Part shown: positions 4,785-22,620 of the stretch, piece after piece
Layout: the number at the start of each line of letters is the position of its first letter
Position numbering within the stretch: the stretch's first letter is position 1
Virus record (IMG/VR): IMGVR_UViG_3300042887_001784
Span: 1 to 28,996 of that record
Length of the DNA stretch: 28,996 nt
Reading direction: 5' to 3' (one strand)
From: a virus
The notes under the pieces: generated by a model
Seen by the model: only the letters and a program-made list of their open reading frames with translations
What the model was told of the DNA's origin: nothing
The model's database searches: none
Made by a program: the position numbers and the translations under genes

Positions 4785-4787
4785 ATT

Positions 4788-5165: not shown

Positions 5166-5167
5166 AG

Positions 5168-5806
5168 TTATGATGACATTCCTGAACCATCTGTATTACC
5201 ATCATCTTCGCCACTATTGCCAGTGCTGCCCGGAGCACTTGTGCCCCAATATACGGCTTTATCTGCCATACTGGATATAAACTCCAAGCCTTTATCATTT
5301 GGATATAACTGCTTTTGTGCTTCATCTGTATAACGCACATCTTTGGTGCGATTTAGTTCTATGAGTCTGCTTTCACATTTTACAGTTATGGTTGATATAT
5401 CAGCACTTTCTTGTATAAGAAGTTGGTCCATATATCCTCTAAAAAGTGTTACTTGCTCATAACTGCTCATATTTGTATTGAACAATACAAGATATACTAC
5501 AGCATCTCTGCCACGATATGATCCACTCAAGGCAAGACTTACATATTCTGTAGGTATACCAGATAATGTAAGATCCATTGTCTTGGCAGCAACTTCAGTT
5601 GTTTCTGTAACTGTGGATATGCTGCCAAATGTGCCAACACCAAGATAATCACCACTGCCGCCTATATCACTGAATGATTTACTGGTATTACCTGTCCATA
5701 AACGCACAGGAGCACTACCACTAAAGTCAAGATATGCAGCAAAATACGGCTGTATCAGTGTTACGCTACTACTAACATATGTATCTGTTACATTAGGTCT
5801 ACTCAT
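5168..5806 (-). CDS. Minor tail protein, DUF2163-like N-terminal type
   Basis: 212 residues. The run VRLWTGNTSKSF near residues 35-46, the RGYMDQLLIQES strand at about 123-134 and CESRLIELNRTKDVRYTD at about 143-160 match the conserved pattern of DUF2163-type baseplate or minor tail proteins. These proteins sit between the distal tail protein and the NlpC/P60 protein in many siphophages and gene transfer agents. The gene overlaps its upstream neighbour by ATGA (5803-5806), indicating translational coupling. The product is expected in the tail tip hub. The last 20 residues are Gly/Ser/Asp-rich and probably flexible. The family call rests on motif recognition, not on a search. Confidence 0.78.
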   Translation of the reverse strand: MSRPNVTDTYVSSSVTLIQPYFAAYLDFSGSAPVRLWTGNTSKSFSDIGGSGDYLGVGTFGSISTVTETTEVAAKTMDLTLSGIPTEYVSLALSGSYRGRDAVVYLVLFNTNMSSYEQVTLFRGYMDQLLIQESADISTITVKCESRLIELNRTKDVRYTDEAQKQLYPNDKGLEFISSMADKAVYWGTSAPGSTGNSGEDDGNTDGSGMSS

Positions 5807-6348
5807 ATTGCTTCAATCATTGGGATTGTAATGCCAGTAATCATCATTTGATCAACGCTATAGTTTACATCATTGGTTGCCAGACGCATTCTTACGCCAG
5901 CACTTGTATTGATGCTATATGCTGTGCTTGGTATCAACTTTGGAAATAGTGATGTTGCAGTTGTAAACTGAACAAGTCTGTTGCTGGTATTATCATATCC
6001 ATATTTGCCAACCTGAACCGTGCCACTGCTTACAGTAAAGTCATTACCAGTTGCTGTGGTTGTTATACCAACAGTATTTGATATCAAAAACTTGCTTGGT
6101 AACTTGAATGTAAATGTGCCAGTAGTTCCAGCAAGAGCATTTAGAAATCCAGTCAGTTCCTCGGCATCTGTCTGGAATAGTGGTGCAAGTGTAACAGTCA
6201 GTTCCCACCATTGACCGCCATAACGATATATCTGTGTCTTGCCAGTATATGGCGATTGGAACTGCGTGGCGATTGATCTTGATGTAAAATCTATGCTACG
6301 AGGCTGTAGTCTGGTATTAGTTGGATATGAAATGGGATATGACGGCAT
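5803..6348 (-). CDS. Minor tail protein following the tape measure (distal tail-like)
   Basis: 181 residues, immediately downstream of the tape measure gene and overlapping the DUF2163-like gene by ATGA. The sequence begins MPSYPISYPTNTRLQPRSIDF and continues with GGQWWELTVTLAPLFQTDAEELTGFLNAL given here in two parts: GGQWWELTVTLAPL, then DAEELTGFLNAL. A strand with a WW pair and an acidic helix is a layout I associate with distal tail or lambda gpM/gpL-type proteins in environmental phages. Beta-rich, no signal peptide or membrane segment. The position suggests a ring at the tube end that links tube to tip. The start lies after TAAAATATAAAATATTATG, two TAAAATA copies with no clear Shine-Dalgarno. 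The exact family is uncertain. Confidence 0.72.
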   Translation of the reverse strand: MPSYPISYPTNTRLQPRSIDFTSRSIATQFQSPYTGKTQIYRYGGQWWELTVTLAPLFQTDAEELTGFLNALAGTTGTFTFKLPSKFLISNTVGITTTATGNDFTVSSGTVQVGKYGYDNTSNRLVQFTTATSLFPKLIPSTAYSINTSAGVRMRLATNDVNYSVDQMMITGITIPMIEAI

Positions 6349-6361
6349 AATATTTTATATT

Positions 6362-8836
6362 TTAGACTGGTGATATTCCTTTGGCATATGAACCACCACG
6401 CTGTCTGGCATCAAGAACACCAGCCATTGCTTCACTCTTGAAGCGTGGTAATAGTTGTAGCATTTCTGCTCGCACAGTTTGGGCAACACCAGTCTGCACA
6501 TATATATTCTGCACTACATTGGTTGACTCACCCGGTTGCATATCATTTGGCAGTATATATCCATTCTGTGCTGGAACAAATGTTTCTGGACCTGCTTCAC
6601 CAACACGATATGCTCCACCCATAGCAACAGGACCACCTCTTGCTCTTGGAGTTAGACCAGTTAGTTGTCCAAATGCTGCACCAGCAACAGGATTTATAAA
6701 TCCTATGGAAGCCATTATACCTTGCAGTATTGCTGTGCGTAATATCAATACAGTGATGTCTTTTAGAATACTCTTGAATACATTCTTCAGGGCATCACCA
6801 AAGTTCTGTCCTTCTACTATTGCTCTGCTGAACTGGTCAGCAAAGTCAGACATATACTGGAAGCCTTGTGCTATTGCTTCATTTCTGGTCAAGAATACCT
6901 TTGCTTCTGCCTGAAGAAGCATTATCTTTTTCTGCTGATCTGTAAGAGCCAATCTGATAGCACCTTTTTCCGACTCTCTGGATGCTGCAAGAAGTTTATT
7001 TATTCTAACAAGATCTTCTGTATATTGTGCTTCACCAAGAAGTTGCTTGTCGTTTAGTGCTATAGCAATTTCTCTTTGATATATCGCATCCTTTTGTTGT
7101 TTGATGGTTAGTGCAGCAAATGTTGCTTCTGTTTGATACTTGGCTTGTATTGCAGCTGCTTCTTGCTGTAATAACTCAAGCCTTCCTTGAGTCAATGTGC
7201 CTTGTTGCTCATATCCCTGCAATATCTTTTGTAATGTAGCAACTTCAGTCTTTGCAAGTGCCTCAAAATATGCATTGGACTCTTTTAGTTTGTCATCCAA
7301 CTCTGCTAATGGTCTCGATATATCTCTAACCTCTTTATTGCTATTGCGTAAAACATCCAATATATTGACATTTGACCCTCTTGGTAAAGCAATCAAATCT
7401 CTTTGTAGTTTCAAGTATTTTTCTGTTGGGTCATATAATGCTCTATATGAACTACCTAAACTATCTATTACTGTTCTTCTTTCTTGGTCTGTTCTTATAC
7501 CATTGGCAACAAGAGCATCCAAATCTTCTAAGATTTTCTTATATCTGTTTGCTGGGTCAATAGCATCATCATATGCAGCACCAAGAAGTTTTATATTATC
7601 AGCCTTTTGTTTTTCGGATAAACCTTTATCAGCATTTATCTTTGCTACTTCTGCGGCATATTTTTTGACCGGGTCAACCGCAAATACATAAGCCTGTGAA
7701 ATGCCAGCAATAAGTTTGAGCCTATCTTCTTCACTCAACCTATTTTTCTTTACCAGTTCATTTATTTTATCTACTTCCGAGGCATATTTTGCCGCAGGGT
7801 CAATGCTGGCAAGAATACTATCTCTTACTTTTCTAAATGCTTCTGCCTGCAATGCAAGTGCGGCTGCTCTTTCTCTATCTGCCGCTGCTCTTTGGCGTAG
7901 CAATGCCTGTTCTTGTTGTGCCTGTGCCACATCGCCAATACCAGTATTTGCTCTACCTTGTGCTTCTTCTATAGCCTTTCTAAAGTTTGCAGCACCTGCC
8001 AATCCACCTTGACCCATAAACGCAGCACCTGTTGTTGAACCACCCGGTGCATTTTTTTGCAGGTTCATCAACTGTTGTGTCGCCAATACTACTTGTCCAG
8101 CAAACTCTATTGCTGCTCGTGTAATAGTTGTAAAGGTTGATGTAGCACTATCACCAAGTCTATCCAATGCTGCTATTGCTTCTTCACTGTTTACAAAAAT
8201 ACTATCCGTGGCTTTTTTTATACCACCAGATGCTGCAATATCCTGAAGAGCATTTAATACTTTTGCTGAACTTTTACCAAGAACTTCTTGAGCAAGTGCG
8301 GCTCTTTTGGCAGGATCAGATATACCATCTAATGCTCTGGAGAACCTTTCTACCTTATCTTCTGGAGACAGTTGTATAAAACTATTGGCATCAATACCTA
8401 ACTGTGTAAAAGCATCCTGTAAAGATTTATTTCCTTCTGACGCATCTATGGCACTCTTTTGTAGTTTGTTGAATACATTGCTTACATCTTCTAATGTATT
8501 TCCACTTTTCTGAAATACACTCTCAAATCTTTGCAAGTTTGATGTGCTTATATTTAGTTGATCAGACAGATCCTGTAATCTACCAGCAGAGTCAAGTATT
8601 TGTTTAGCAAAAGAGGCAAATGCTCCACCAACTGCAATATTACGAAGTTGATTTAGTTGACGGCTCAATGAGCCAATGGAACTACCAGTCTTTTTAGCAG
8701 AGTTTGATATGCCATCAAAACTCTTTGAGGCATCATTTGCTGTCTTTTTTGTTTGAGTTTCAACAATCTTTAGCCCCTGTAGATACTTTGATACATTGGC
8801 TATAAAATCAACGGCGATGGTGCTGATGGTGCTCAT
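6362..8836 (-). CDS. Tail tape measure protein
   Basis: 824 residues, the longest protein between the tail chaperones and the tip genes, as expected for a tape measure. Residues 1-130 are helical with Ser/Lys-rich heptads. The middle is alpha-helical and Gln/Ala/Glu-rich. Four copies of a repeat of about 41 residues start with DPxxKY at about 346, 388, 427 and 469 (DPAAKY, DPVKKY, DPANRY, DPTEKY), each followed by an LSE-type helix and an LGxxY helix. The C-terminal part holds a hydrophobic segment (about 700-725), an ARGGPVAMGGAYRVGEAGPE motif and a GYILPND-like motif, a signature seen in lambda gpH-type tape measures. It sets tail length and is ejected with DNA. An AT-rich leader with TATAAT and ATACTTATATAA lies just upstream. 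Confidence 0.93.
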   Translation of the reverse strand: MSTISTIAVDFIANVSKYLQGLKIVETQTKKTANDASKSFDGISNSAKKTGSSIGSLSRQLNQLRNIAVGGAFASFAKQILDSAGRLQDLSDQLNISTSNLQRFESVFQKSGNTLEDVSNVFNKLQKSAIDASEGNKSLQDAFTQLGIDANSFIQLSPEDKVERFSRALDGISDPAKRAALAQEVLGKSSAKVLNALQDIAASGGIKKATDSIFVNSEEAIAALDRLGDSATSTFTTITRAAIEFAGQVVLATQQLMNLQKNAPGGSTTGAAFMGQGGLAGAANFRKAIEEAQGRANTGIGDVAQAQQEQALLRQRAAADRERAAALALQAEAFRKVRDSILASIDPAAKYASEVDKINELVKKNRLSEEDRLKLIAGISQAYVFAVDPVKKYAAEVAKINADKGLSEKQKADNIKLLGAAYDDAIDPANRYKKILEDLDALVANGIRTDQERRTVIDSLGSSYRALYDPTEKYLKLQRDLIALPRGSNVNILDVLRNSNKEVRDISRPLAELDDKLKESNAYFEALAKTEVATLQKILQGYEQQGTLTQGRLELLQQEAAAIQAKYQTEATFAALTIKQQKDAIYQREIAIALNDKQLLGEAQYTEDLVRINKLLAASRESEKGAIRLALTDQQKKIMLLQAEAKVFLTRNEAIAQGFQYMSDFADQFSRAIVEGQNFGDALKNVFKSILKDITVLILRTAILQGIMASIGFINPVAGAAFGQLTGLTPRARGGPVAMGGAYRVGEAGPETFVPAQNGYILPNDMQPGESTNVVQNIYVQTGVAQTVRAEMLQLLPRFKSEAMAGVLDARQRGGSYAKGISPV

Positions 8837-8880
8837 AGATTATAATATTCTTTTATATAAGTATTATAAACGCAGTCTGT

Positions 8881-9198
8881 TTAGTCTTTTTTAGACGACA
8901 TATATTTTATAAACTGCGATTTTATATCAGCCTCTTGCTCATTTACATTCTTGTCTGGCTGCGGCATAAAGTCTTTTGGCTCATACTTCTTTTTGCCACC
9001 ACCCATACAGTTTGCCATTACACTACAAAGAAGGGCAGTCCTGAAGTCTGCCCTTTTTTCTTTTTCCTTCCAAGCACCTACGAGTGCTATATACAATGGA
9101 TCACTTGGACTCATTTTATACAAGTCTTCAAGTGCAACCGGCACATTTAGTTCTACTATGGCAAATGCCACAATATCGTGTGCCGATATCTTCTTCAT
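8881..9198 (-). CDS. Tail assembly chaperone, second component (lambda gpT-like)
   Basis: 105 residues, directly upstream of the tape measure gene. The central part (AFAIVELNVPVALEDLYKM) is helical, then RTALLCSVMANCMGGGKKKYEP is followed by DFMPQPD; a C-terminal xKxYxPxDFMP segment is typical of the second chaperone encoded before tape measure genes. Its ATG overlaps the TGA of the first chaperone gene (ATGA at 9195-9198), so it appears to be made by termination-reinitiation. In lambda-like phages the second part is made by a -1 frameshift, but no canonical slippery heptamer is visible at the end of the first gene and the -1 frame has a TAA just before this ATG. Expected to bind the tape measure during tail assembly. 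Confidence 0.75.
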   Translation of the reverse strand: MKKISAHDIVAFAIVELNVPVALEDLYKMSPSDPLYIALVGAWKEKEKRADFRTALLCSVMANCMGGGKKKYEPKDFMPQPDKNVNEQEADIKSQFIKYMSSKKD

Positions 9199-9422
9199 TT
9201 AGGTTCTTCGCTAAATATGTTTAGTTCGGCTTGGAATGTTTCACTACTCAAGTTCTCAACTGTATCAAATGTAGTGGTTTGATCCTTGGTATACTTGATA
9301 AGAAATACCAAGTCTCGCAAGTCTGTTGCGGACTTGCCTTCTTTTTGGAATAGTTCCATTGCGTTTTTGCCAGTTACTTTTTCATAGTGGCACATTGAAC
9401 GTAGACTTATTTTATCAAACAT
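9195..9422 (-). CDS. Tail assembly chaperone, first component (lambda gpG-like)
   Basis: 75 residues, acidic and helical: MFDKISLRSMCHYEKVTGKN, then a middle helix DLRDLVFLIKYTK and an acidic C-terminus. Small size, acidic helical character and position one gene before the tape measure fit the gpG-type chaperone. A good Shine-Dalgarno, AAAGGAACTCAAATG, precedes the start at 9422. The start region overlaps the last 8 bases of the GIY-YIG endonuclease gene, which is inserted between this gene and the tail tube gene. The 3' end overlaps the next gene by ATGA. The family call rests mainly on context. Confidence 0.72.
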   Translation of the reverse strand: MFDKISLRSMCHYEKVTGKNAMELFQKEGKSATDLRDLVFLIKYTKDQTTTFDTVENLSSETFQAELNIFSEEPK

Positions 9423-10044
9423 TTGAGTTCCTTTTGTTTATTGTTATTTGTTTTCTATCTAAAGTTTTTTTGTACTTCATTCCTTTTCTACGCTTGTTGG
9501 CCTCACCAATCTTACGTTTATGTTCTTCTGTAAATATTTTTCCTATCATTTTTGCTCTTTGTTTTTCTATAGAAATAAAAGATGGAGATTTTCCTTTATT
9601 ATGGGCCACTCTGCCTTTTCTCGTCTTTGACATTTTAGACCGTGTTTCTTCTGAAATCGTTTTTCCTATTAGGGACTCGCTAATCCTTCTTCGTGTATCT
9701 TCGCTGCATATATACTTACCATTGCCACCAATGCGTAAATTATATCCATTTGGAGCTATACTATCTAATCTGATAGACCATTCAGTTTCTTTACTATGTA
9801 ATTTTTCTATTGCACATTCTTCCAGCTTATAACAACTAAATGCTTCTTTCCCATATTTTGCAAATGATGAACTTATTAGTGGTTGAGTAGATTGAATGGT
9901 ATTTAGATATTTTTCTATTCTCTGTGGAACGTGAATACTTTCTCCAACATACCATTTGGATGTTTCGTGGCATTGAATACCATATATACCAGAAAAACAA
10001 CTTCCTGTATATACTATACTTCCACTGGAAAATAATAAATCCAC
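9415..10044 (-). CDS. GIY-YIG homing endonuclease with NUMOD3 repeats
   Basis: 209 residues with a GTG start at 10044, supported by AAGGA seven bases upstream. Residues about 19-36 show SGIYGI and KWYVGES, the GIY-YIG core; an Arg follows in VPQRIEKYL, a Glu lies in KETEW (85-89) and GYNLR closes the domain. Residues about 115-200 contain NUMOD3-type DNA-binding repeats: a SEDTRRRISESLIGK segment, a SEETRSKMSKTRKGR segment and a TEEHKRKIGEANK segment. These are hallmarks of phage and intron homing nucleases of the Seg / I-TevI type, which cut DNA near their own insertion point. It is free-standing, placed between the tail tube gene and the tail chaperones, and follows a separate NUMOD3 gene by 2 bases. 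It has no structural role in the virion. Confidence 0.9.
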   Translation of the reverse strand: MDLLFSSGSIVYTGSCFSGIYGIQCHETSKWYVGESIHVPQRIEKYLNTIQSTQPLISSSFAKYGKEAFSCYKLEECAIEKLHSKETEWSIRLDSIAPNGYNLRIGGNGKYICSEDTRRRISESLIGKTISEETRSKMSKTRKGRVAHNKGKSPSFISIEKQRAKMIGKIFTEEHKRKIGEANKRRKGMKYKKTLDRKQITINKRNSNV

Positions 10045-10046
10045 GA

Positions 10047-10280
10047 TTATTCCTTATTTTTTATTTCTTTCTGAAACTTTTTATATAGACTGTCATATTT
10101 GATTATGAACATCTTTATTCTTTGTTCTTCTACTCTTTTCTCGTGCATAGTAAGAATAAACTTGGCACGCTGCTCGTCTGTCCACTCTGCACCAAATCGT
10201 GGATGTTTGTCACCCTTATATTTGCGGCGGCTTTCAGATATCTTCTTTTTAGTCTCTTCAGTGTGTTTTCCCTTAAACAT
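10047..10280 (-). CDS. Small NUMOD3-type DNA-binding protein
   Basis: 77 residues. The N-terminus is a NUMOD3 motif, GKHTEETKKKISESRR (about 4-19), followed by GDKHPRFGAEWTDEQRAKF, a second motif of the same kind; the rest is a Lys/Glu-rich helix. NUMOD3 motifs normally occur as the DNA-binding tail of GIY-YIG or HNH homing nucleases, and here one stands alone with no nuclease domain. It ends 2 bases before the GTG of the GIY-YIG gene, so the two look like one mobile unit. It might be a remnant of an earlier nuclease, or supply extra DNA-binding specificity. The leader is AT-rich without a clear Shine-Dalgarno. Confidence 0.75.
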   Translation of the reverse strand: MFKGKHTEETKKKISESRRKYKGDKHPRFGAEWTDEQRAKFILTMHEKRVEEQRIKMFIIKYDSLYKKFQKEIKNKE

Positions 10281-10317
10281 AATATCTATATATATCTTTT
10301 AGCCTTGCTATTCAGAC

Positions 10318-10351
10318 AAAAAAAAAGACGATATTTTACAATATCGTCTTT
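10318..10351 (-). terminator. Intrinsic terminator after the tail tube gene
   Basis: On the minus strand a 12-bp stem (AAAGACGATATT / AATATCGTCTTT) with a GTAA loop is followed by a run of nine T. It lies 25 bases past the stop of the major tail protein gene, so it should end the tail tube transcript before the homing endonuclease genes. Confidence 0.9.
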
Positions 10352-10375
10352 TATATCAAATAATCTAAAGATTAG

Positions 10376-10801
10376 TTAGGACTGGCTAAAGTTTACTGCA
10401 CCAGACAAGCGAACAGATACATCGGCAGTAAGAATACCCTGCGATGGATCATCAGCAGTGATGTTAAACTCGGTGAATGAGCCGCTGAAGCCCCACTTGG
10501 TGTTATCACTGAACTTGATATGGAAGATATCGTTGGCAAGAGCAGTGTTAGCACTCTGCGAAACGATGAACTGGTGAACGCCATTGGCTGGATTGTATTG
10601 CAGACCGAAGGTTAGTGTACCCGGATCTGTTAGAGCAGCAGCCTTGTATTCCTTGGCTGTGCTACTCATATTAGTAACATCAATGTCAGGCTTGCTGAAG
10701 TTAGGGCCACCAATGTTGGTTACGCCGTTGATTTCTACTGGAGCACCTGAACCGGTTGCTACATAAAGAAGTGTTTTACTATAGATTGCTGGGGATGCCA
10801 T
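10376..10801 (-). CDS. Major tail tube protein
   Basis: 141 residues, beta-rich with few charged clusters: MASPAIYSKTLLYVATGSGA, an early GVTNIGGP strand, a TDPGTLTFGLQYNP strand (about 58-71), a W at about 103 in NTKWGFSGSFTEF and a C-terminal DVSVRLSGAV strand. This layout fits the small gpV-type tube proteins that stack as hexamers around the tape measure. Its codon use looks richer in G and C than its neighbours, like the capsid gene, which fits high expression. A strong Shine-Dalgarno (AAGGA, 6 bases before ATG) precedes it, with a leader that is free of minus-strand genes, and its own terminator follows. In most siphophages this gene comes directly after the tail terminator gene; here about 6 kb of other genes lie between. 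Confidence 0.85.
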   Translation of the reverse strand: MASPAIYSKTLLYVATGSGAPVEINGVTNIGGPNFSKPDIDVTNMSSTAKEYKAAALTDPGTLTFGLQYNPANGVHQFIVSQSANTALANDIFHIKFSDNTKWGFSGSFTEFNITADDPSQGILTADVSVRLSGAVNFSQS

Positions 10802-11003: not shown

Positions 11004-11618
11004 TTATGGTTTACCATACTTTTTAATGACTTTTTTATATAGTTTATTAACATCGCTGCTCAACTTGCTTATTTTCTCTACAGTATCAGCACTATAATCA
11101 TTCTGCATAGATAATAAGTCCAGTTCCATACGAGTTTTTACATACATAAATCTTATGTCATTCTCGTCCACCCAACTATGCTTACATCTATTAGTCTTCT
11201 TTGGTACTATCTGTATGTTATAATACCTATATGCCATCGGCTTTAGATGCTTGTTTTCTGGCTTATTAAACCAACTGGCAGATAGTATATGATCAATCTC
11301 GTGTGTCTTCATCATTTCATTGAACTGCTTTTGGTTCATATTCATTGTAGCAAGCAACTGCTCTCGTGTCATACCAAGGTTACTTACTACCTTATAACTG
11401 TGTCTCCAGCGATTTAGCAAATAACTGCGTAATGCTATACGCATTTTGATCTCCTCAAACTTTACTGGATCTGACCGCAGTTTACGCTGATAATCACGGT
11501 TATATGATTTGATATATTCCTTGTTGTTCTTTTGCCACTCTTTGATATAACCTTTATATGTCTTATAACTTGCCGATAATGTGCTTTCTGGGCGTTCTAT
11601 ATTTGTTGCTGTTGTCAT
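11004..11618 (-). CDS. HNH endonuclease, probably a free-standing homing type
   Basis: 204 residues. The HNH core is visible: EIDHILSASWF (Asp109-His110), YYNIQIVPKKTNRCKH with Asn134 and Asn143, and a Lys146-His147 end. The N-terminal 100 residues are basic and helical (YIKSYNRDYQRKLRSD; MTREQLLATM) and may bind DNA. No zinc Cys pairs are seen. Such genes in late phage operons are usually mobile homing nucleases. It starts with ATGACAACAGC at 11618; the same 13 bases (GCTGTTGTCATAG on the plus strand) occur at 10937-10949 and 11608-11620, flanking the gene. A hairpin lies in its 5' leader and a terminator-like hairpin directly follows it. It is not essential to virion structure. Confidence 0.75.
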   Translation of the reverse strand: MTTATNIERPESTLSASYKTYKGYIKEWQKNNKEYIKSYNRDYQRKLRSDPVKFEEIKMRIALRSYLLNRWRHSYKVVSNLGMTREQLLATMNMNQKQFNEMMKTHEIDHILSASWFNKPENKHLKPMAYRYYNIQIVPKKTNRCKHSWVDENDIRFMYVKTRMELDLLSMQNDYSADTVEKISKLSSDVNKLYKKVIKKYGKP

Positions 11619-12768: not shown

Positions 12769-13086
12769 TTAGGGCTTTATATAGTCGTCTGGTTTCTTAC
12801 CTATTCTTTTTACAAGTTTTACAACCGCAGCAATCAACTCTGGACTGGTTACGCCAACAATACCATAACTGATTGCTTTTATGAAACTGCTCACAGGCAT
12901 TTGCTCAAGCATAAACCACGCTATAGTGCTGCATATAACAGCGGCAAGTATTTTACGCACAAAGTCAAAGATAGGCATTGATTTGCCTTCTATCATCAAT
13001 CGTGCGGCCATACCAAGGCCACCTACAATGCTGACAATCCAGCCGCCAGAAATAAACTCTTTTATTATTTGTTTCTCGTCGCTCAT
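12769..13086 (-). CDS. Holin, three transmembrane segments
   Basis: 105 residues with hydrophobic segments at about 13-32 (GGWIVSIVGGLGMAARLMI), 42-62 (FVRKILAAVICSTIAWFML) and 67-92 (FIKAISYGIVGVTSPELIAA), an acidic N-terminus and a basic tail KLVKRIGKKPDDYIKP. Size, spacing and the charged tail fit class I holins of the LydA / phage holin 3 type, which form holes in the inner membrane to release the endolysin. Translation is coupled to the preceding small gene by ATGA (13083-13086). No endolysin gene is adjacent and none was recognised in the window, so the lysis cassette is split or the endolysin lies outside. Confidence 0.78.
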   Translation of the reverse strand: MSDEKQIIKEFISGGWIVSIVGGLGMAARLMIEGKSMPIFDFVRKILAAVICSTIAWFMLEQMPVSSFIKAISYGIVGVTSPELIAAVVKLVKRIGKKPDDYIKP

Positions 13087-13316
13087 AGTGTTATATTGTT
13101 TAGTTGATCTATAACATCTTGGAACTCTTGCTGTGTTATTTCCACAGGCTGAAAATCACTTATAACATCAAGGCTTTCTATTTCGCTGTTGCCATATAAT
13201 GTGGTTGGGTCGGAGGGCAAAAACATTCCTGTATTGCTATCGTCTGGCAGATATCTGTCAGGTCCGATTTTTTCATTTTCGTTGATAATCTTTAGTTTAT
13301 ATTTGAAATATTTCAT
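13083..13316 (-). CDS. Small protein B, possible fibre chaperone, paralogue of 14322-14561
   Basis: 77 residues when started at the ATG at 13316, preceded by GGAGG seven bases upstream and overlapping the TGA of the kelch gene (ATGA). This start gives MKYFKYKLK, matching MKYFTYTLK of the paralogue, so the longer frame from 13331 is not used. Both share a GPDxxLPxDSxTG core, a central acidic segment and an ITxxEF motif near the C-terminus. An ITxxEF-like ending recalls small fibre assembly proteins, and each copy is paired with a kelch-like adhesin gene, so a role as a dedicated chaperone or a base for the adhesin is inferred. It is not a recognised family. Confidence 0.72.
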   Translation of the reverse strand: MKYFKYKLKIINENEKIGPDRYLPDDSNTGMFLPSDPTTLYGNSEIESLDVISDFQPVEITQQEFQDVIDQLNNITL

Positions 13317-14320
13317 CCTAAACCTCCACATCCGGCTGATGCATATGTTTTATTCATAGCAGTTACAGCAGACACTGCTTCTGTACTAAATGGCATTTTA
13401 TATGCTCTTGTTGTTTCTGGCTGAAAATCAACTCTATTTACATAACCACCCATTGTATATCCAGTAGTTCTGCTGCTATGTGAACTATAACTGGTTACTC
13501 TTCTTGCACCAGTTGATGTTGATATTGTTGGAAAGTTTGCTGATGTAGTAGATACACTATCTGTTTGATAGTTTACTTTCATCCAATATATTGTTGGTTG
13601 ACCGGGGTCTGGTGCTCCACTTGGTAAATAACCACACTTTGATAACTCTGCGGTCATACTACCATTGCCACCAGCAGCAAGAGCATATGGTAAAGTAAGA
13701 GAACCATTAGCAGATGTAGTATCTGTAGTAAATGGCATTTTATCAGCAGTTGTTTGCAATGAGAAACTTACTGGTGTATTTTTATATCCACCAAAATATA
13801 ATGCCGATGTTTGAGTACTCAATACTGTTCCTTGACCTCTCGCAGTTGATAAGTTGGCTGAAGTTTGAGTGGATGTTGTATCATTGCTGAATGTTGTCTT
13901 ATATGCTGTAGTTTTATCGTATGTGTTTTGTCCAGATGATCCTCCATAACTATACATCGCAAGACTATTGCCAGTTCCTCTATGATCAGATGTTGCTTCT
14001 GGTAAGTTTGCTGATGCCTGTGCAGTAGTTGTATCATTACTATATGTTATTTTATCAGCATTTAAACTTGGTATATATGATAAACTTGTCATACCACCTA
14101 TACAATAACCTTTTGTATTTGATCCAAAACAACTAAAATATGTTTTTCGCTGTGTTAGATTTGCTGAAGTTACCAATGATGTTGTTTCACTATCATAAAA
14201 CGCCCTATCAACTCTACTTGGTGGTTCATCAACATAAAATGGAGTGCCTCCAGCACTATATGTTTTGGTATTGGTTTGATACCACGGCAAAGAATATGTT
14301 CTTTTCTGTGCGATAAACAT
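13313..14320 (-). CDS. Kelch-like adhesin B (putative appendage or receptor-binding protein)
   Basis: 335 residues from the ATG at 14320, one base after the TAA of the preceding gene (TAATATG); a longer frame from 14365 would add an unlikely His-rich leader overlapping that gene. Six kelch-like units are visible, each ending near a GG pair: TYSAGG, GYCIGG, MYSYGG, LYFGG, GYLPSG, GYTMGG, separated by DxTTxxxSANL-type stretches. A beta-propeller is likely. Similar kelch-like proteins occur in marine phages. It ends ASAGCGGLG, as the paralogue at 15114-16112 ends TAGCC. The two share full-length similarity, so they come from duplication and may recognise different receptors or form a mixed appendage. 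The function is inferred. Confidence 0.78.
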   Translation of the reverse strand: MFIAQKRTYSLPWYQTNTKTYSAGGTPFYVDEPPSRVDRAFYDSETTSLVTSANLTQRKTYFSCFGSNTKGYCIGGMTSLSYIPSLNADKITYSNDTTTAQASANLPEATSDHRGTGNSLAMYSYGGSSGQNTYDKTTAYKTTFSNDTTSTQTSANLSTARGQGTVLSTQTSALYFGGYKNTPVSFSLQTTADKMPFTTDTTSANGSLTLPYALAAGGNGSMTAELSKCGYLPSGAPDPGQPTIYWMKVNYQTDSVSTTSANFPTISTSTGARRVTSYSSHSSRTTGYTMGGYVNRVDFQPETTRAYKMPFSTEAVSAVTAMNKTYASAGCGGLG

Positions 14321-15113: not shown

Positions 15114-16112
15114 TTAGCAGCAGCCAGCAGTTTGAGCCTTTGCCACAGTTTTATTCATAGCAGATATAGCAGATAAAGTTTCTGTACTTATTGGAAGTTT
15201 ATATGATGTTACTACTTGTGTATTTGTATATCCACCAAGTGTATATGCTGTTGTTTTACTGCTTATACCACTACCTTGTGACGTTGCTGTTGGATATGCT
15301 GCTGACATATTTGCTGAAGTATCTGTAGTATATGTTACTTTAGTCCAAGTAGTTGTTGCACCATCACCAGAAATATATCCGTGCGAACTTAATGTTGAGT
15401 TGATTGATCCATAGTTAGCATAAGCTTTTGCAGTCGGTAATGCTAATGAAGTATTATTTGCGGTTGTTTCAGTGCTAAATGGCATTTTATCAACAATAGT
15501 TTGTCTTGTAAATGAACCGGGTGTATTTCTAAAACCACCAAGATACATAGCAGCAGTATTACTGCTTAATGTAGTACCACTTGCTCTACCAGTAGCAAGA
15601 TTTGCTGATGTTTGTGTCGCAGTTGTATCTGTACTATATGGTGTCTTATATGCCGCAGTTTGATCATTGCTATTTGCGGCAGCACTTCCACCATAGTTAT
15701 ATATTGCTATATTATATACTGCCGTAAGTATACCGGATCTTGCTGCTGGCAATGCTGCACTTGCATTGCTTGCCATAGTATCATTGCTATGTGTTAGTTT
15801 GTTCGCACTGGTTTGTGAAGTATCTCCAGCATCTGTTCCACCAATATAATATGCTTGTGTATCATTTCCACCAGAAGCAAGTTGTGCTCTTGCTGCTGTA
15901 AGATTGGCAGATGTTGCTGCGGCTGTAGTCTCGCTTGAGAATGTAGCCTTATCAGCAGTAACTACTGGCCCCGATGATCCACCAATACTAAATCCTTTGG
16001 TATCTGTGCCATACCAAGTTGGAATGACAGTACCAGTGTATACTGGATTTACACTTCTATATGAAATGCCCAGTTTGCTGCCAAGGCGAGGATACTTTGT
16101 TGATCGTAGCAT
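15114..16112 (-). CDS. Kelch-like adhesin A (putative appendage or receptor-binding protein)
   Basis: 332 residues. Six kelch-like units with GG-ending strands: GFSIGG, YYIGG, IYNYGG, AMYLGG, GYISG, AYTLGG, with repeated DTTAxxxSANL and FSTET-type stretches between. A beta-propeller of about six blades is likely. It shares full-length similarity with kelch B, including TAYKTPYSTDTTATQTSANL against TAYKTTFSNDTTSTQTSANL and the Cys-containing end AGCC. The N-terminus MLRSTKYPRLGSKLGISYRS is basic and may anchor the propeller to the particle. It lies in the cassette between the neck and tail tube genes. Ligand and location are inferred, not shown. Confidence 0.8.
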   Translation of the reverse strand: MLRSTKYPRLGSKLGISYRSVNPVYTGTVIPTWYGTDTKGFSIGGSSGPVVTADKATFSSETTAAATSANLTAARAQLASGGNDTQAYYIGGTDAGDTSQTSANKLTHSNDTMASNASAALPAARSGILTAVYNIAIYNYGGSAAANSNDQTAAYKTPYSTDTTATQTSANLATGRASGTTLSSNTAAMYLGGFRNTPGSFTRQTIVDKMPFSTETTANNTSLALPTAKAYANYGSINSTLSSHGYISGDGATTTWTKVTYTTDTSANMSAAYPTATSQGSGISSKTTAYTLGGYTNTQVVTSYKLPISTETLSAISAMNKTVAKAQTAGCC

Positions 16113-16115
16113 ATA

Positions 16116-16481
16116 TTATGTATTTTCTCTACCATATATAACTACATTGATACTTCCAGTTTGTGTTGCTCTCATTGTTATTTTATCACTATAGTTAGTA
16201 TCGGAGTTTAACACAAATGGTATTTTTGGAGCAACTTCAAGTGCAGCAGAACTTGAAATACCTTCACTTAAACGCTGTATAGCAAATGAAGCACTAAATG
16301 ATGCTGTTGGTGTGGTTGCTGTAAATGGAAACCACATTTGTGCGGTTGCTGTGGCACCACTATAGTTAAACATCCAGATGCTGCCAATCTCTACAGATTT
16401 GCTTACTGGTGCTGTATACACAATACTTTCAGTAGCGTGTAGTATTTGACTTGCGAGTTGTTTTATATCTCCGTATGGCAT
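16116..16481 (-). CDS. Small beta-rich structural protein (fibre or decoration)
   Basis: 121 residues: MPYGDIKQLASQILHATESIV is a short helix, then beta-strands VYTAPVSKSVEIGSIWMFNY, MWFPFTATTP, RLSEGISSSAAL, IPFVLNSDTNYSDKI and TGSINVVIYG. This VYTxPxxKxVxIxSIxxxNxS layout is common in environmental phage proteins annotated as structural or decoration proteins. The start at 16481 is preceded by TAATAGGACAATATT, with a usable AGGA. It precedes kelch A by 3 bases. Its role is inferred from context: attaching or capping the appendages. Confidence 0.65.
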   Translation of the reverse strand: MPYGDIKQLASQILHATESIVYTAPVSKSVEIGSIWMFNYSGATATAQMWFPFTATTPTASFSASFAIQRLSEGISSSAALEVAPKIPFVLNSDTNYSDKITMRATQTGSINVVIYGRENT

Positions 16482-16510: not shown

Positions 16511-16996
16511 TTAGTTGAAGCGTGCGATAATCGTTTTATCACCCGGTACATTTACTCTTATTTCGGCAGTTCTACTATATTGATTAGTTCCGTTTATAAA
16601 TGACATTCCTGTACCAACAAGTTGCCATCTATCAAAGTATGGCATAAGTGTGTCATTATATACCAGACTCATAGTCATAAACTTATATGCTCCGCCAGTT
16701 ACATTCAATACTGTTGTAGAACCATATGATGGACTTGTGGCCGTAAATGATCTATTCATTGGATTGTATCTGCTCATTTGTATATAAGCATATTCTTGTG
16801 GTGGAGGAGGTTCTGGTGTTGGTGCGATTGTTGGTGTTGGTGTAGCAGTATATGATGGTGTTGGAGTTGGAGTTGGCGTTGCCGTTGCAGTGATCGTAGG
16901 TGTAGGTGTTGGTGTGAAACTAACACTTGGTGTAGGAGTAGGGGTTGGACCTTCTCCATCTGTAGGCTTATGCTTCCATTTTACACATTTAAACAT
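16511..16996 (-). CDS. PT-repeat linker protein with C-terminal beta domain
   Basis: 161 residues. Residues 1-15 are short and basic ([15 protein letters not shown]), residues about 16-68 are a TPTPTP linker with a PEPPPPQE end, and the last 90 residues form a beta-rich domain ([40 protein letters not shown]). It lies between the giant fibre gene and the small structural gene, and starts at the TAAAATATG junction after the gene upstream. The linker resembles that of the tail tip protein gene at 155-1159, so one module seems shared between neck-proximal and tip-proximal proteins. No anchor or signal peptide is visible. A structural role is likely, with the exact location unknown. Confidence 0.7.
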
Positions 16997-16999
16997 ATT

Positions 17000-19900
17000 T
17001 TATAGTCCGCTATACATCCATACATCCTGTATAGATATACCAGCAGTTCCGGCGTTTGTAGCATAACTTGCTGTGAGAGCATAACTTGCACTTACAGATC
17101 CGTTTATTACATTGAGTGCCAATGTAGCATATGATGCTGTAGTTGCATTTTCAGCATAACTTGCAGTCAAAGATCCATTGATGACATTTAGTGCGATTGT
17201 AGCATAAGAAGAACTTTCTGCGTTGTTGATATAACTTGCTGTATTAGCAAAACTGGAAGTTATGGAATAACTTGATGTTGTAGCAAATGATGCTGATGTT
17301 GCATTTTCTACTGGTGTTAGATCTCTTACATCAACAAATATTGTGCAAGGGCCACTCGGATCCATTATATTACCAACACATAATATTGTTCCACTTGTTG
17401 GTGGTGTAACTGTCAATGATCCAGTTGCATCCAAATATATTCTATCACCCGGATTTGCTCCATAAATACTATATCCAAGATCTGTTGGACCATATGTTAC
17501 TAATGGACAACTTTCTCCACCAGCAGTTTCTTTGGTTGTTATACCAACAAAGTCATTGCCATTATTGTTTACAATATCTGGCGATCCAAAAACTGAAGTA
17601 TATGATGATGTTGGTAATGTTACAAAGCCAAATCTATATCTCATATCTTTGGCACCATTATTGCCACTCCAAACACTGTTTGTTATGCAAACTGCTGTTC
17701 CTTTTGGCACAGTTCCTCCACTGTTATTTAGTGCATTAGCAAACAACTGCTCACCAAGTCTATAATCAAAGCCATCTACACTCAAATCAAGGCCCGGAAG
17801 TGTAAGGTTCTTGGCTAATACATTGCTTCCAAGGTTGCTTGCCCAATCTGATGGACTGCTGAAAGTTATACCGTTGGTTGTGCTTATAGTATTTGCAGTA
17901 TTTGCTGTTTCAGCATAATCACTATAACTTGATGTTTCGGCATAACTTGCGGACTGTGCCATCAATGCATAACTGGATGATGCGTGTATTACAGTTATAT
18001 TACCAAGATCGTCCAAGAACTTGAAGTGCTCTGGATATGCACCATCGTTCATTGTGAACTTATATCCCAAACCAGATCCACTCAACACGAATGAGTCAAG
18101 TTGAGCACTTACTTCTATAGATATTATTCCAGTTGAACCTGCTGATATATCAAGCGTATTATTATCACCGATAATCTCTGTGCCAACAAAGTGGCTTGAT
18201 GTTAGAGCATAACTTGCTGTGCCAGCAAATGAACTTGTGGTTGATATATTAGTGATATTATCCCAAGGCATTGATGTTGGTGTAATGCCGCTGGTACCAG
18301 ATGTTCCACTGGTTCCGCTGCTGCCGCTGGTTCCGTTTTGACCGCTTGTGCCACTTGTTCCAGCCTCACCACTTGTACCGGATGATCCAGATGTTCCACT
18401 TTCTCCGCTGGTTCCGCTGCTTCCAGAACTACCACCAGTTCCGCTTGTGCCACTGCTGCCAGATGATCCAGATGTTCCACTTTCTCCGCTGGTTCCGCTG
18501 CTTCCAGAACTACCACCAGTTCCGCTTGTGCCACTTGATCCAGAAGATCCGTTTGCACCACTGGTTCCGCTTGATCCACTGCTTCCAGATGAACCATTGG
18601 CTCCACTTGTGCCACTGCTGCCACTACTACCTCCTGTGCCAGAGGTTCCAGACGATCCACTGCTGCCATTGGCACCGCTTGTGCCACTGCTGCCAGATGT
18701 TCCACTGCTTCCGCTTGATCCACTACTGCCTCCTGTGCCACTGGTTCCGCTGCTGCCACTTGTGCCATTAGCACCACTTGTTCCGCTGCTACCAGATGTT
18801 CCGCTATAACTCAAAGCATAACTTGCTGTTGTAGCCCAAGAAGATGTTGCATTTAGTGCTCCAACAACTGTCAATGATCCAGTAATCAATACAGATCCTG
18901 TGGCTTGAACAGTTCCTATAAATCTGTGTATATCCAGAGTGCTGTCTCCAAATACATTTGTGCCAGAAGCATACATATCACTTGCTGTAATAGTTGTGAT
19001 ATTAGCATTGGTTGCTGTAAGTTGTGATACAATGGCGGTTGAGCCACTCAAATAAGAAGCACTTGCTGCGGTTCCACCAGCAGCATTCAGAGCATATGAT
19101 GCCGTTATGGCATAACTTGCTGTGCCAGCAAACTGGCTGGTATTTGTTATACCAGTTATGTTTGCATACGGCATTGATGTTGGAGTTGTGCCAGATGTTC
19201 CAGATGTTCCGCTGCTTCCACTGGTTCCGTTGGCTCCGCTGGTTCCACTGCTGCCGCTTGTTCCATTTGCACCGCTGGTGCCACTGCTACCAGATATTCC
19301 ACTGGTGCCACTTGATCCACTACTACCACCTGTTCCACTGGTTCCAGATGTTCCGCTGGTGCCACCAGTTCCACTTGTGCCAGAACTACCAGCAGTTCCA
19401 GATGTTCCGCTACTTCCACTCGTGCCATTTGCACCACTAGTTCCACTACTTCCACTGGTTCCAGAACTACCACTGCTGCCGCTTGTTCCACTTGTGCCAG
19501 AACTACCACCTGTTCCGCTTGTTCCACTTGATCCAGTTGTTCCAGATGTTCCGCTTGAACCACTGCTACCACCTGTTCCACTTGTTCCACTTGTTCCGCT
19601 GGTTCCGCTGGTTCCTGCTGTTCCACTGGTTCCACTCGTTCCACTATAACTCAAGGCATATGATGCTGTGATTGCATAACTGGATGTGCCATTTATTGGT
19701 CCATTTACAGTTAGAGAACCACTGACAAACATTGATCCAGTAAGTTCTACTTTACCCTCAAAAGAATGAACATCAAGAGGACTATCACCAAATCTGTTTG
19801 TGCCATCTGCTGTGATATATGATGCAGTCAGTTGTCCAACTGTTATATTATTGGCAGAACTAAATGCATTTCCACCACCATTGCTCAACTGGAAAGAACT

Positions 19901-21340
19901 ACTTATTGTGCCACCACCGCTGCCAGCATTCAGGGCATAACTTGCAGTCAGTGCATAACTAGCACTAACACTGCCATTGATTACATTTAGTGCTGTTGTA
20001 GCATATGAAGCACTCTTGGCCGCTTCAGCATAATGAGAATAAGAAGATGTTAGAGAGCCACTCAATGTATTGATGGCATATGTAGCAAAGTTTGCTGTGC
20101 CAGCAGTTGTAGCGTTGTTTGCATTTATAGCATAACTGGCTGTATTTGCATTCAGAGCATAACTTGCTGTAGCACTCAATCCAGATACATAACTTGCAGT
20201 AAGAGCAAATGAAGCACTGGTTGCATTTGTTGCTGTATTGGCAGACACCGCAGTTTGTGCGTTATTGCTATAACTTGCAGTTGTAGCAGTATTTGCTGTT
20301 TGTGCTGTTGCTGCAAAACTTGCTGTTGCCGAATAACTAGAAGATAGTGATCCATTGATGCTGTTTAGTGCAATGGTGGCATAACTTGCTGAAGTAGCAG
20401 TTGCTGCATTGACAACATAACTTGCAGTTGTTGCTATAGATGCTGTCTGTGCATAACTTGCACTGATACTACCATTGATTACATTCAGAGCAACAAGTGC
20501 ATAATCGCTGGTTGATGCATTGCCAGCATTTTGAGCAAATAAACTATAAGAAGATGTTTCGCTGGCGTTGAGGGCATAACTTGCGGTTAATGCTTTATTA
20601 GCATAACTGGATGTGCCTGCAAATGAACTTGTGTTGGTTATACCAGTTACTCCAGTATATGGAACAAACAACGCATTGAATGCAGTTTCAGCAACACTTG
20701 TATAAGAAGAAGTAACACTACTTTCTGCTGTATTGCTTTTTAATGCATAACTTGCACTTGTGGCACTTGATGCATATGAACTACTTACAGCATTAGCATA
20801 TGTGCCAGTAACTGGAACATTGATACTACCAGACAATAATATAAGATTACCTGTTATTGTAACATCGCTGCCAGTGATTTGCAATACATTGCTTCCAGTA
20901 AGAATATATCTGTCTTGCCATATTGCTATTTGTGGAGACTGACCTTCACCAATAACAACATTACGATATGGTATATCTGCACCATAAACTACATCAAAAC
21001 TTATTCCGCGTGTATATATGGCTGTATCTATATCAAAATCATCTGTTTCACTGTTCAATACCATCTGTATTTCATTGTCATATCCATTCAGGATTGAGAT
21101 AATGAAGTCACGCATTTCTTCTGCTTTTTCTATGGTCTTTGCTTTAGCAGCAAATGTAACTGTTTCAGTAAGTACACTTGGGCCACTCATTGTCTGGCTA
21201 CCCAGAGTTCCATCACGAGTAAATACTATACAAGGTAATGACACATTTTGATTTTCAAATGTGCTTTCACTATATACTGGCACCTGCAAGTTCAGGTGGA
21301 TGAGTTGGCGTAAGTTGTTATAATATTCTGTGATGGCCAT
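17000..21340 (-). CDS. Giant fibre fused to a tail-terminator-like N-terminus
   Basis: 1446 residues. Residues about 1-130 resemble DUF3168 / gpU-type tail completion proteins: VPVYSESTFENQNVSLPCIV then an ETVTFAAKAKTIEKAEEMRD stretch, and the gene directly follows the gp10-like gene, where a tail terminator is expected. About 165-490 and 1345-1435 are ASYA/ALNVINGS repeats. Two related modules (GTNRFGDSPLDVHSFEG and GTNVFGDSTLDIHRFIG) each lead into a GTSGTSG/GSSGTSG collagen-like stretch at about 562-720 and 845-1018. Residues about 1190-1345 form a beta domain with VPKGTAVCI, GDRIYLDATG and ILCVGNI, a pattern seen in phage fibres. I infer a ring protein at the head-tail joint carrying long whisker-like fibres. 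The domain junction is continuous in one frame. Confidence 0.75.
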   Translation of the reverse strand: MAITEYYNNLRQLIHLNLQVPVYSESTFENQNVSLPCIVFTRDGTLGSQTMSGPSVLTETVTFAAKAKTIEKAEEMRDFIISILNGYDNEIQMVLNSETDDFDIDTAIYTRGISFDVVYGADIPYRNVVIGEGQSPQIAIWQDRYILTGSNVLQITGSDVTITGNLILLSGSINVPVTGTYANAVSSSYASSATSASYALKSNTAESSVTSSYTSVAETAFNALFVPYTGVTGITNTSSFAGTSSYANKALTASYALNASETSSYSLFAQNAGNASTSDYALVALNVINGSISASYAQTASIATTASYVVNAATATSASYATIALNSINGSLSSSYSATASFAATAQTANTATTASYSNNAQTAVSANTATNATSASFALTASYVSGLSATASYALNANTASYAINANNATTAGTANFATYAINTLSGSLTSSYSHYAEAAKSASYATTALNVINGSVSASYALTASYALNAGSGGGTISSSFQLSNGGGNAFSSANNITVGQLTASYITADGTNRFGDSPLDVHSFEGKVELTGSMFVSGSLTVNGPINGTSSYAITASYALSYSGTSGTSGTAGTSGTSGTSGTSGTGGSSGSSGTSGTTGSSGTSGTGGSSGTSGTSGSSGSSGTSGSSGTSGANGTSGSSGTSGTAGSSGTSGTGGTSGTSGTSGTGGSSGSSGTSGISGSSGTSGANGTSGSSGTSGANGTSGSSGTSGTSGTTPTSMPYANITGITNTSQFAGTASYAITASYALNAAGGTAASASYLSGSTAIVSQLTATNANITTITASDMYASGTNVFGDSTLDIHRFIGTVQATGSVLITGSLTVVGALNATSSWATTASYALSYSGTSGSSGTSGANGTSGSSGTSGTGGSSGSSGSSGTSGSSGTSGANGSSGSSGTSGTGGSSGSSGTSGANGSSGSSGSSGTSGANGSSGSSGTSGTGGSSGSSGTSGESGTSGSSGSSGTSGTGGSSGSSGTSGESGTSGSSGTSGEAGTSGTSGQNGTSGSSGTSGTSGTSGITPTSMPWDNITNISTTSSFAGTASYALTSSHFVGTEIIGDNNTLDISAGSTGIISIEVSAQLDSFVLSGSGLGYKFTMNDGAYPEHFKFLDDLGNITVIHASSSYALMAQSASYAETSSYSDYAETANTANTISTTNGITFSSPSDWASNLGSNVLAKNLTLPGLDLSVDGFDYRLGEQLFANALNNSGGTVPKGTAVCITNSVWSGNNGAKDMRYRFGFVTLPTSSYTSVFGSPDIVNNNGNDFVGITTKETAGGESCPLVTYGPTDLGYSIYGANPGDRIYLDATGSLTVTPPTSGTILCVGNIMDPSGPCTIFVDVRDLTPVENATSASFATTSSYSITSSFANTASYINNAESSSYATIALNVINGSLTASYAENATTASYATLALNVINGSVSASYALTASYATNAGTAGISIQDVWMYSGL
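18290..18805 (-). repeat. Collagen-like GSS/GTS triplet repeat, second block
   Basis: Coding sequence for Gly-Thr-Ser / Gly-Ser-Ser triplets with occasional Ala-Asn, Glu-Ser or Gly-Gly, about 170 residues. The underlying DNA is a tandem array of 9-base units. Such arrays change length easily by slippage, which would alter fibre length. Confidence 0.85.
18381..18535. repeat. Perfect 74-base direct repeat, period 81
   Basis: Bases 18381-18454 recur without change at 18462-18535. The period of 81 bases is 27 codons, nine Gly-X-X triplets, so the copy keeps the reading frame. Identity at synonymous positions shows a recent duplication inside the collagen-like block. Confidence 0.85.
19187..19645 (-). 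repeat. Collagen-like GSS/GTS triplet repeat, first block
   Basis: The N-terminal-proximal block of the same protein, about 155 residues of Gly-X-X triplets that begin GTSGTSGTAGTSG and end GTSGTSGTTPTSMP. It is preceded by the first SGSLTV-type module and followed by the second, so blocks and modules appear duplicated as a unit. Confidence 0.85.
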
Positions 21341-21365: not shown

Positions 21366-21809
21366 TTATTTCGGATTGGGATTGTTCTTCTCGTATTTTT
21401 TTATCTTACGCTGTAAAGAAGATACAAAACTATCCACTACAGATTGTCTTGCTGCTTCTGCTCCATCCCTTGTAAAGTTATATTTTGCTTCTAATACATT
21501 GGCATATCTCCACGGAACTCTTGGTCTGCCTTGACGATCTACACCACGAACTCTTTTATTGACACCAGTTATGATCAATACCACACCATCCTTTGGATAT
21601 ATTATCTTTTTGCGTGTGATGCTTGATTGTAAAAGTCCTGTATCAACCAGTCCATCATTTTGTATGGCTTCTTTGATACTATCTTCCATCTTTTTATTAG
21701 CACTATATGCTGATGCTACAATACTTTTAGCCGCAAACTCTTGACTCATCTTATCAAGTTTCTTTTGTAGTTCTTCTAAACCTCTAATGTTGATGGATAC
21801 TTCAGCCAT
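21366..21809 (-). CDS. HK97 gp10-like neck / tail completion protein
   Basis: 147 residues. The N-terminus MAEVSINIRGLEELQKKLDK and the following KSIVASAYSANKKMEDSIKE match the helical start of HK97 gp10-family proteins, with the usual VDTGLLQSSI (about 56-65) and a C-terminal VPWRYANVLEAKYNFTRDG segment. These proteins lie between head closure and tail terminator genes and contribute to the head-tail interface. The start overlaps the stop of the head closure gene by one base (TAATG). The stop is followed by an AT-rich leader with ACTTATAATAAAA ahead of the giant fibre gene. Confidence 0.85.
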   Translation of the reverse strand: MAEVSINIRGLEELQKKLDKMSQEFAAKSIVASAYSANKKMEDSIKEAIQNDGLVDTGLLQSSITRKKIIYPKDGVVLIITGVNKRVRGVDRQGRPRVPWRYANVLEAKYNFTRDGAEAARQSVVDSFVSSLQRKIKKYEKNNPNPK

Positions 21810-22123
21810 TAGTTTCTTCTTTCTCCAGTTACTCTTACATAACCATCATATACCAGTTCATCAACATATACTATGTTATATTTGTTGCTGGCATATGTTA
21901 TATTTGCTTTTTCATTTATGTTATTGTTTTCACGCAATGTAAAAACATATGTGGCAGTGTTATATACATACCCATTTATAGTTGTTTCACCACCACTGTT
22001 CTTTTTTACATTTGCAAACAATGACTGCGACGCATATGTCATAATGCTTTGACCATAACGGTCAACACTGCTGCTGGTAGGATACTCCAGCGTTATTTTT
22101 TCATCAAGTAAGCCCGGATTCAT
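21809..22123 (-). CDS. Head closure protein (SPP1 gp16 / phage_H_T_join type)
   Basis: 104 residues: MNPGLLDEKITLEYPTSSSV, then DRYGQSIMTYASQSLFANVK, a TYVFTLRENNNI strand and a C-terminal YDGYVRVTGERRN. The LDxxITLE start, the DxYGQ motif and the W/Y-xxVxxxSGGE middle are typical of head-tail joining proteins that close the connector pore after packaging. Small size and place between the connector and gp10-like genes agree. It begins at a TAAAATATG junction after the connector gene and overlaps the next gene by TAATG. Confidence 0.85.
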   Translation of the reverse strand: MNPGLLDEKITLEYPTSSSVDRYGQSIMTYASQSLFANVKKNSGGETTINGYVYNTATYVFTLRENNNINEKANITYASNKYNIVYVDELVYDGYVRVTGERRN

Positions 22124-22126
22124 ATT

Positions 22127-22612
22127 TTATTGTGGCTTTACAAGTTTGTATGGACTCAATAAAGCATCTACTGTATAGTTAAGAGGAGAAGTGGATACAC
22201 CTATTGCTTGTGGCAATCTATTTTCATACCAGTTATTCACCAAAATCATTTGTGCGATTTTGACATTGTTTGGAATACTGCCACTGTTGGCCACGGTAAA
22301 TGTAATATCTCCACTAAAATATTGTCCTTCTGGAATGTATGTATACCAACTTCCAGCATACTCATTGAGCGAACCAGTACTTACTTTATTCACAGTTTGA
22401 GTACTTAAAAATATATCACCACTGCTGCTAAAGACATACATACTATGTGTGCAAGGACTAAAATCTCTGTTGCATTCTGCTGTTACTTGCTCATAACTGG
22501 CAGTAATCAGACTTGATATAAGAACATCGTCGTCAGTGAACTGAACACGAAGATAGTTCTTTGCTTCTGTAAGTGTAGGTCCGTAGTTTGATATATTTGT
22601 TCTGGTTCTCAT
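22127..22612 (-). CDS. Head-tail connector protein (gp6-like)
   Basis: 161 residues from the ATG at 22612 (MRTRTNISNYGPTLTEAKNY). A TTG two codons upstream could extend it but is less likely. TLTEAKNYLRVQFTDDDVLI and LITASYEQVTAECNRDF match the helical core of gp6-like connectors, which form the ring under the portal; the Cys/Phe-rich middle and a C-terminal MILVNNWYENRLPQAIG helix also fit. It is the first gene after the capsid terminator and is preceded by a candidate promoter whose -10 lies only 8 bases from the ATG, with no Shine-Dalgarno. Confidence 0.85.
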   Translation of the reverse strand: MRTRTNISNYGPTLTEAKNYLRVQFTDDDVLISSLITASYEQVTAECNRDFSPCTHSMYVFSSSGDIFLSTQTVNKVSTGSLNEYAGSWYTYIPEGQYFSGDITFTVANSGSIPNNVKIAQMILVNNWYENRLPQAIGVSTSPLNYTVDALLSPYKLVKPQ

Positions 22613-22620
22613 ATACAATA

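Follow-up and report, generated by a model that had tools for sequence, protein, structure and literature searches.

Tail terminators form a hexameric ring that caps the tail tube, and their loss results in polytails or in tails that remain unjoined. They are typically stand-alone proteins of approximately 110-160 amino acids and are usually regarded as small, buried parts with a single job. In lambda gpU, the tube protein is bound by the loop that connects strands two and three (PMC10721106), and in the R4C terminator the tip of this hairpin, including Met50, inserts into a tube groove (PMC10276861).

Long appendages at the neck have been described from other proteins. Collar whiskers and neck passage structures (NPS), such as T4 wac fibritin, XM1 gp40, the NPS of lactococcal 936 and TP901-1 phages, Sf14 gp30/gp31 and phi29 gp12, are separate neck-attached proteins, and the NPS of TP901-1 is described as non-essential (PMC10491603, PMC6669499, PMC4493119, PMC11821841). 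Extra domains fused to core proteins are exemplified by the Ig-like domain of the R4C adaptor, by TpeX of the 936 tube protein and by the sheath-binding domains of myophage terminators (PMC10276861, PMC6669499, PMC11784142). A fusion of a terminator with a fibre was not found in the titles, abstracts and passages searched in the open-access literature.

Fused gene F and its fibre

The window analysed here is the whole 28,996-base IMG/VR virus contig IMGVR_UViG_3300042887_001784, which is itself a fragment. The frame is a single unbroken one, as an earlier note on this DNA had claimed. This frame, gene F, opens with an ATG at position 21340 and encodes 1446 amino acids free of internal stops (Table 1).

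Table 1. Features of gene F and of the neighbouring head-tail genes in the window
Feature	Position	Strand	Evidence
Fused gene F, tail-terminator domain and giant fibre	17000..21340	minus	single open frame; same fusion in 20 other contigs
Tail-terminator domain, residues 1-125	20966..21340	minus	phrog_347, hhalign, AF2, Foldseek
Tip of long beta hairpin, residues 47-56	21173..21202	minus	conservation; AF2 strands 37-49, 56-67
Linker, residues 126-165	20846..20965	minus	identity drop between relatives
ASYA-repeat shaft, residues 187-562	19655..20782	minus	ASYA-like tetrapeptide positions, sequence
Collagen-like block 1, residues 567-719, 51 GXY triplets	19184..19642	minus	Pfam PF01391; tandem repeat 19196-19645
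Inter-collagen segment, residues 720-846	18803..19183	minus	sequence
Collagen-like block 2, residues 847-1020, 58 GXY triplets	18281..18802	minus	PF01391 best stretch 958-1016; tandem repeats 18286-18802
C-terminal fibre segment, residues 1021-1446	17003..18280	minus	sequence; final residues ISIQDVWMYSGL
HK97-gp10-like neck/tail-completion gene, directly upstream of F	21366..21809	minus	phrog_5 E 8.8e-11
Head closure (stopper, Hc1)	21809..22123	minus	PF05521 E 1.4e-9; phrog_25
Head-tail adaptor Ad1	22127..22618	minus	phrog_40 E 4.2e-17; PF05135
Major tail tube protein	10376..10801	minus	PF16460 lambda-like tube E 1.4e-8; phrog_158
121-aa gene downstream of F, possible accessory	16116..16481	minus	role inferred from position only

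The approximately 1300 residues of ASYA repeats and two collagen-like blocks reported by the same note were likewise recovered. The 40 ASYA-like tetrapeptides are distributed on either side of the collagen blocks as well as between them, both Gly-X-Y runs are uninterrupted and composed chiefly of GTS and GSS triplets, and the Pfam Collagen model matches F with an E-value of 7.7e-36, the long Gly-X-Y runs that characterize PF01391 being present. Judged from its sequence, the C-terminal segment contains a globular-looking part at about residues 1150-1345, for which tblastn found no match among phages. In Pfam and PHROG scans full-length F matches collagen, fibre-type and virion-protein families only, and no match to a known NPS/fibritin neck anchor (BppU-like N-terminus or wac) was obtained. 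Annotation by the collagen part alone therefore hides terminators of this kind, and full-length F would end up classified among tail fibres. The tail-tip protein of the window (1161-4784) has an end that resembles, by eye, an S74-type intramolecular chaperone; inspection and Pfam scanning of the neck fibre F revealed no such chaperone.

Gene neighbourhood

The minus-strand order in the window is terL, portal, protease, capsid, Ad1, Hc1, gp10-like gene, F, accessory genes, tube, tape-measure chaperone, tape measure and tail tip, some of these labels (e.g., terL, protease and tape measure) being assigned from sequence and gene order and not from a profile match. F thus occupies the expected place directly after the gp10-like gene, as had been proposed earlier, and lies before the tube gene, with approximately 6.2 kb of accessory genes separating it from the latter. 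In relatives L037 and L038 a plain terminator lies between Hc1 and the tube gene. No second terminator-like frame was detected in the 29-kb window, whose structural genes extend from the terminase through to the tail tip.

The 121-aa gene downstream of F recurs in L002, L014, L022, L046, L049 and L071 and has no family match in profile searches. Furthermore, otherwise unrelated accessory proteins encoded between F and the tube gene (window 16511-16996, 15114-16112 and 13313-14320; L004:9043; L022:10843 and 11668; L049:8393) share, by eye and by pattern, a similar short start peptide, consisting of MF or ML followed by S/T, K/R and aromatic residues, which may serve as a common docking tag for decoration proteins that can replace one another. 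Long Pro-Thr repeats are common to the protein at 16511-16996, beside the neck fibre, and to that at 155-1159, beside the tail tip. The tail module also accommodates, between the terminator and tube genes, a holin-like gene (12769-13086; phrog_6384 E 2e-4) along with further accessory genes. Immediately ahead of the tube gene, a protein of 204 aa (11004-11618) has an HNH-like appearance by eye, and between the tube and tape-measure-chaperone genes there is a gene for a GIY-YIG homing endonuclease (9415-10044; phrog_314 E 5e-23).

Terminator identity of the N-terminal domain

The proposal that the first approximately 130 residues of F correspond to a tail terminator held up against both profile and fold. 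A profile search with residues 1-135 alone returned a terminator match: the tail-terminator family phrog_347 matches residues 17-119 of F with an E-value of 7e-4 (5.9e-5 in the best relative). Pfam gave no significant match to residues 1-135, PF11367 remaining below its cut-off, and sequence searches of the PDB returned only chance or repeat-protein matches. Profile-profile comparison by hhalign of 14 family sequences with five stand-alone terminators, two of them confirmed as PF11367 and located at the syntenic place after Hc1, yielded a probability of 96.4% and a pairwise E-value of 1.3e-9; a repeat run scored 50.4 versus at most 10.8 in 40 column-shuffled controls.

The AlphaFold2 model of the domain (pLDDT 79.7, pTM 0.73), built on the deeper alignment A4 of 19 sequences, follows the order helix-strand-strand-helix-strand-strand and matches the gpU-type fold of a helix, two long strands, a helix and two strands; the shallow alignment A1 gave a pLDDT of 45. 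Since five of the 19 input sequences are known-type terminators, the fold evidence is not fully independent of the profile evidence. The best Foldseek matches of this model in the PDB were almost all terminators, namely the phiXa connector, T4 gp15, lambda gpU, T5 p142, R4C, Bxb1 and Milano (29 matches at E 0.001 or better, with E-values of 1e-5 to 1e-3 and TM of about 0.5-0.7), and named terminators and DUF3168 proteins were returned from the viral library. As indicated by PHROG, profile-profile comparison, predicted fold and gene position, residues 1-125 of F are a tail-terminator domain, globular and distinct from the fibre that follows. The length of F (1446 aa) departs from the typical stand-alone size and was treated as a variant feature that poses no bar to this assignment. 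Two BFVD terminator-fold matches among the top 50, A0A516LRZ5 (393 aa) and A0A516LX71 (641 aa), were unusually long, and other terminator fusions may hence exist.

Conservation of the fusion among relatives

The same terminator-fibre fusion was present in 20 other IMG/VR contigs, with complete proteins of approximately 470-1770 aa. Relative to F of the window, their ring domain is 74-97% identical whereas the fibre retains only 37-58% identity. Substitution rates in the terminator domain indicate strong purifying selection (dN/dS approximately 0.05-0.13 where dS was measurable). F is a repeat-rich gene of the kind in which short-read assembly can err, so that two genes might have been joined by an assembly or sequencing artefact. 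The junction, however, precedes the repeats and is identical in 21 contigs from different metagenomes, and the diverged fibre and the purifying selection on the domain speak against this explanation as well. Because 20 further, independent contigs carry the fusion and its domain is selectively constrained, the frame error that the earlier note had raised as a possible source of the fusion is excluded, as is a sequencing error, and we regard the chance of an artefact as negligible. A programmed frameshift that would free a short terminator from F was also considered and rejected, no slippery heptamer being found at about codons 110-170 in 11 genes.

The linker is 42-75% identical among relatives versus 74-97% for the terminator domain. 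This drop would be in line with a polyprotein, from which the fibre is cleaved after translation so that each part works by itself, the fibre for instance at the tail tip. Structural polyproteins occur in phages and provide a general precedent. Nevertheless, every contig retains the fusion, including those with a stand-alone terminator paralogue, where simple release of the domain would serve no purpose, and we consider cleavage very improbable.

No relatives of the terminator domain were found in the phage collection or in GTDB species genomes, and none of the capsid in GTDB genomes, while matches of terL, portal and tip proteins fell below 60% identity and were scattered over many hosts. The F family belongs to uncultured viruses of bacteria.

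A stand-alone paralogue and the tube-contact hairpin

A profile search of all fetched loci revealed three architectures. In type A, one F directly follows the gp10-like gene (window, L001-L005, L008 and L010). In type B, found in eight relatives (L006/L047, L007/L048, L014, L016/L049, L017/L050, L018, L024/L046 and L060), a plain paralogue of 118-123 aa, S, overlaps the gp10-like gene and is followed by F; owing to this overlap S and F are probably co-translated. S was seen directly before F at, e.g., L024:7631-7990, L014:2881-3237, L006:6132-6500 and L060:3758-4129, and in L034 and L035 S was seen before the contig ends. In type C, two F copies occur and S is missing (L022/L070 and L027/L073), and both modules are intact from the neck through to the tail tip; similarity to the first F copy of L022 is seen in L012 and L013. 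The two fusion genes of one phage, located at L022:3423-5807 and 8001-10760 and at L073:251-2869 and 4645-6066, enclose accessory genes between the copies. Finding S in relatives led us to reject the fusion as the sole terminator of the whole family. A separate terminator gene elsewhere, named in the earlier note as grounds for refutation, was thus not detected in the window itself, although in the eight relatives with their extra stand-alone paralogue the fusion is not the only terminator domain.

In the tree, a branch with support of 1.0 divides the S sequences from the F sequences, the root between the two groups being uncertain given the distant outgroup. In a backbone tree of concatenated protease, capsid, Ad1, Hc1 and gp10-like proteins, the window and L003, both lacking S, are sister to an S-bearing clade (100% bootstrap), and L008 and L010, also lacking S, group with the S-bearing L046 (100% bootstrap). 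The constant position of S suggests that it is ancestral; if so, the trees suggest that S has been lost at least twice. Loss of F was never seen in the loci of the family.

The coexistence of S and F bears on whether F terminates tails at all. F might be a neck-whisker protein that has retained a retired terminator domain as a mere anchor and forms a second ring or a decoration, while another protein terminates the tail: S in some relatives and an unrecognised protein in the window. The presence of both genes in eight contigs and the normal terminator size and end of S would agree with such a division, and phage 812 is described as having separate terminator decoration proteins (PMC12886913). 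Against it, 12 contigs lack S, among them the window as well as L070 and L073, whose neck-to-tip modules are complete.

Moreover, the conservation of the tube-contact hairpin is the reverse of what a retired domain predicts. The tip corresponding to the tube-contact E-loop of lambda gpU and R4C comprises residues 47-56 of F, with Met51 invariant. Compared in the same four genomes, this stretch reaches a conservation of 0.92 in F, where it is the second most conserved of 109 sliding windows, versus 0.22 in S, where it is the second least conserved of 109 (n=4 S sequences), and the divergence between F and S is greatest at this very tip. As far as four S sequences can indicate, conservation of the hairpin in F and its degeneration in S favour F as the terminator that caps the tube, also in genomes that have S, and retirement of the F domain appears unlikely.

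Alternatively, F and S, or two F copies, might share one hexamer as a mixed ring, in which three fibre chains join into one trimeric whisker, type A phages having F only. Collagen helices require three chains, S and F are adjacent, and L022 and L073 carry two F copies, all of which would suit this arrangement; the hairpin of S, on the other hand, is not conserved as a shared tube interface would need. We hold the mixed ring to be rather doubtful. It would be a sub-case for relatives with S or two F copies and is compatible, for the window, with the preferred reading given below.

Proposed function and origin of F

Our best reading, to which we assign a probability of roughly three in four, is that the fused F protein is a working terminator that also displays neck whiskers. 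Residues 1-125 would fold as a gpU/DUF3168-type subunit and, by analogy with established terminator biology, six F subunits would close off the tail tube once it is complete and attach to the stopper on the filled head. The chain of approximately 1300 residues would leave the ring as a fibre built of the ASYA shaft, two collagen-like triple helices and a variable distal part, and would appear as whiskers at the neck, their location and stoichiometry on the virion being predicted. Because collagen is built of three chains and the ring is six-fold, two trimeric whiskers per ring would be expected. The whiskers most likely make the first, reversible contact with the host surface, given the strong variation of the fibre alongside a conserved ring domain.

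Such a ring need not accommodate a C-terminal fusion, since the C-terminus of T5 p142 is reported to share in subunit contact and a C-terminal tag to yield aberrant polymers (PMC11784142). Terminators of contractile systems, on the other hand, have a C-terminal arm that extends outwards to the sheath (PMC10491603) and, by analogy, this outward route is where the fibre of F would have to leave.

As for the origin of the family, a terminator gene would have been duplicated, whereupon one copy gained the fibre and was always kept, while the plain copy persists in only part of the family, having disappeared on at least two occasions. Loss of the plain copy and constant retention of the fused one would imply that F by itself suffices for tail termination. 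Further points weigh against our best reading: in the eight S-bearing relatives the plain S beside F could do the terminating, Pfam alone does not recognise residues 1-135, and a terminator gene might conceivably lie beyond the ends of the window fragment.

A conserved fusion of terminator and fibre would mean that fibres for host contact sit at the head-tail joint itself and would constitute a new route to neck whiskers. Duplication and loss of the plain copy would offer a natural experiment in how a core ring protein gains a second job. More tentatively, and as a possibility instead of an expectation, the head-tail ring might act as a host-sensing organelle, whose terminator subunits carry collagen-type whiskers and in which S or a second F, mixed or stacked, sets their number and kind; were this true, the pull of a whisker could pass directly to the ring adjoining the DNA gate.

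Comparison with known systems

Collagen-like PHROG tail fibres (phrog_5073, 1806 and 8745) share with F the GXY blocks and the low-complexity shaft. These families, however, carry tail-fibre or minor-tail-protein annotations, and their best matched stretches never cover the terminator domain. The R4C adaptor, the 936 tube protein with its TpeX extension and the myophage terminators resemble F in that a core ring protein bears an extra domain, but what they carry is a small globular domain or a sheath arm, whereas the fibre of F is ten times longer than its core. Like collar whiskers and NPS, F would provide long thin fibres at the neck that probably aid first host contact; unlike them, its fibre belongs to an essential-type ring protein. 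Stand-alone terminators (lambda gpU, SPP1 gp17, T5 p142 and R4C; PF11367/phrog_347) agree with F in fold, profile, gene order and conserved tube-contact hairpin, and differ in being plain proteins of approximately 110-160 aa, while the terminator domain of F carries a fibre of approximately 1300 aa behind it.
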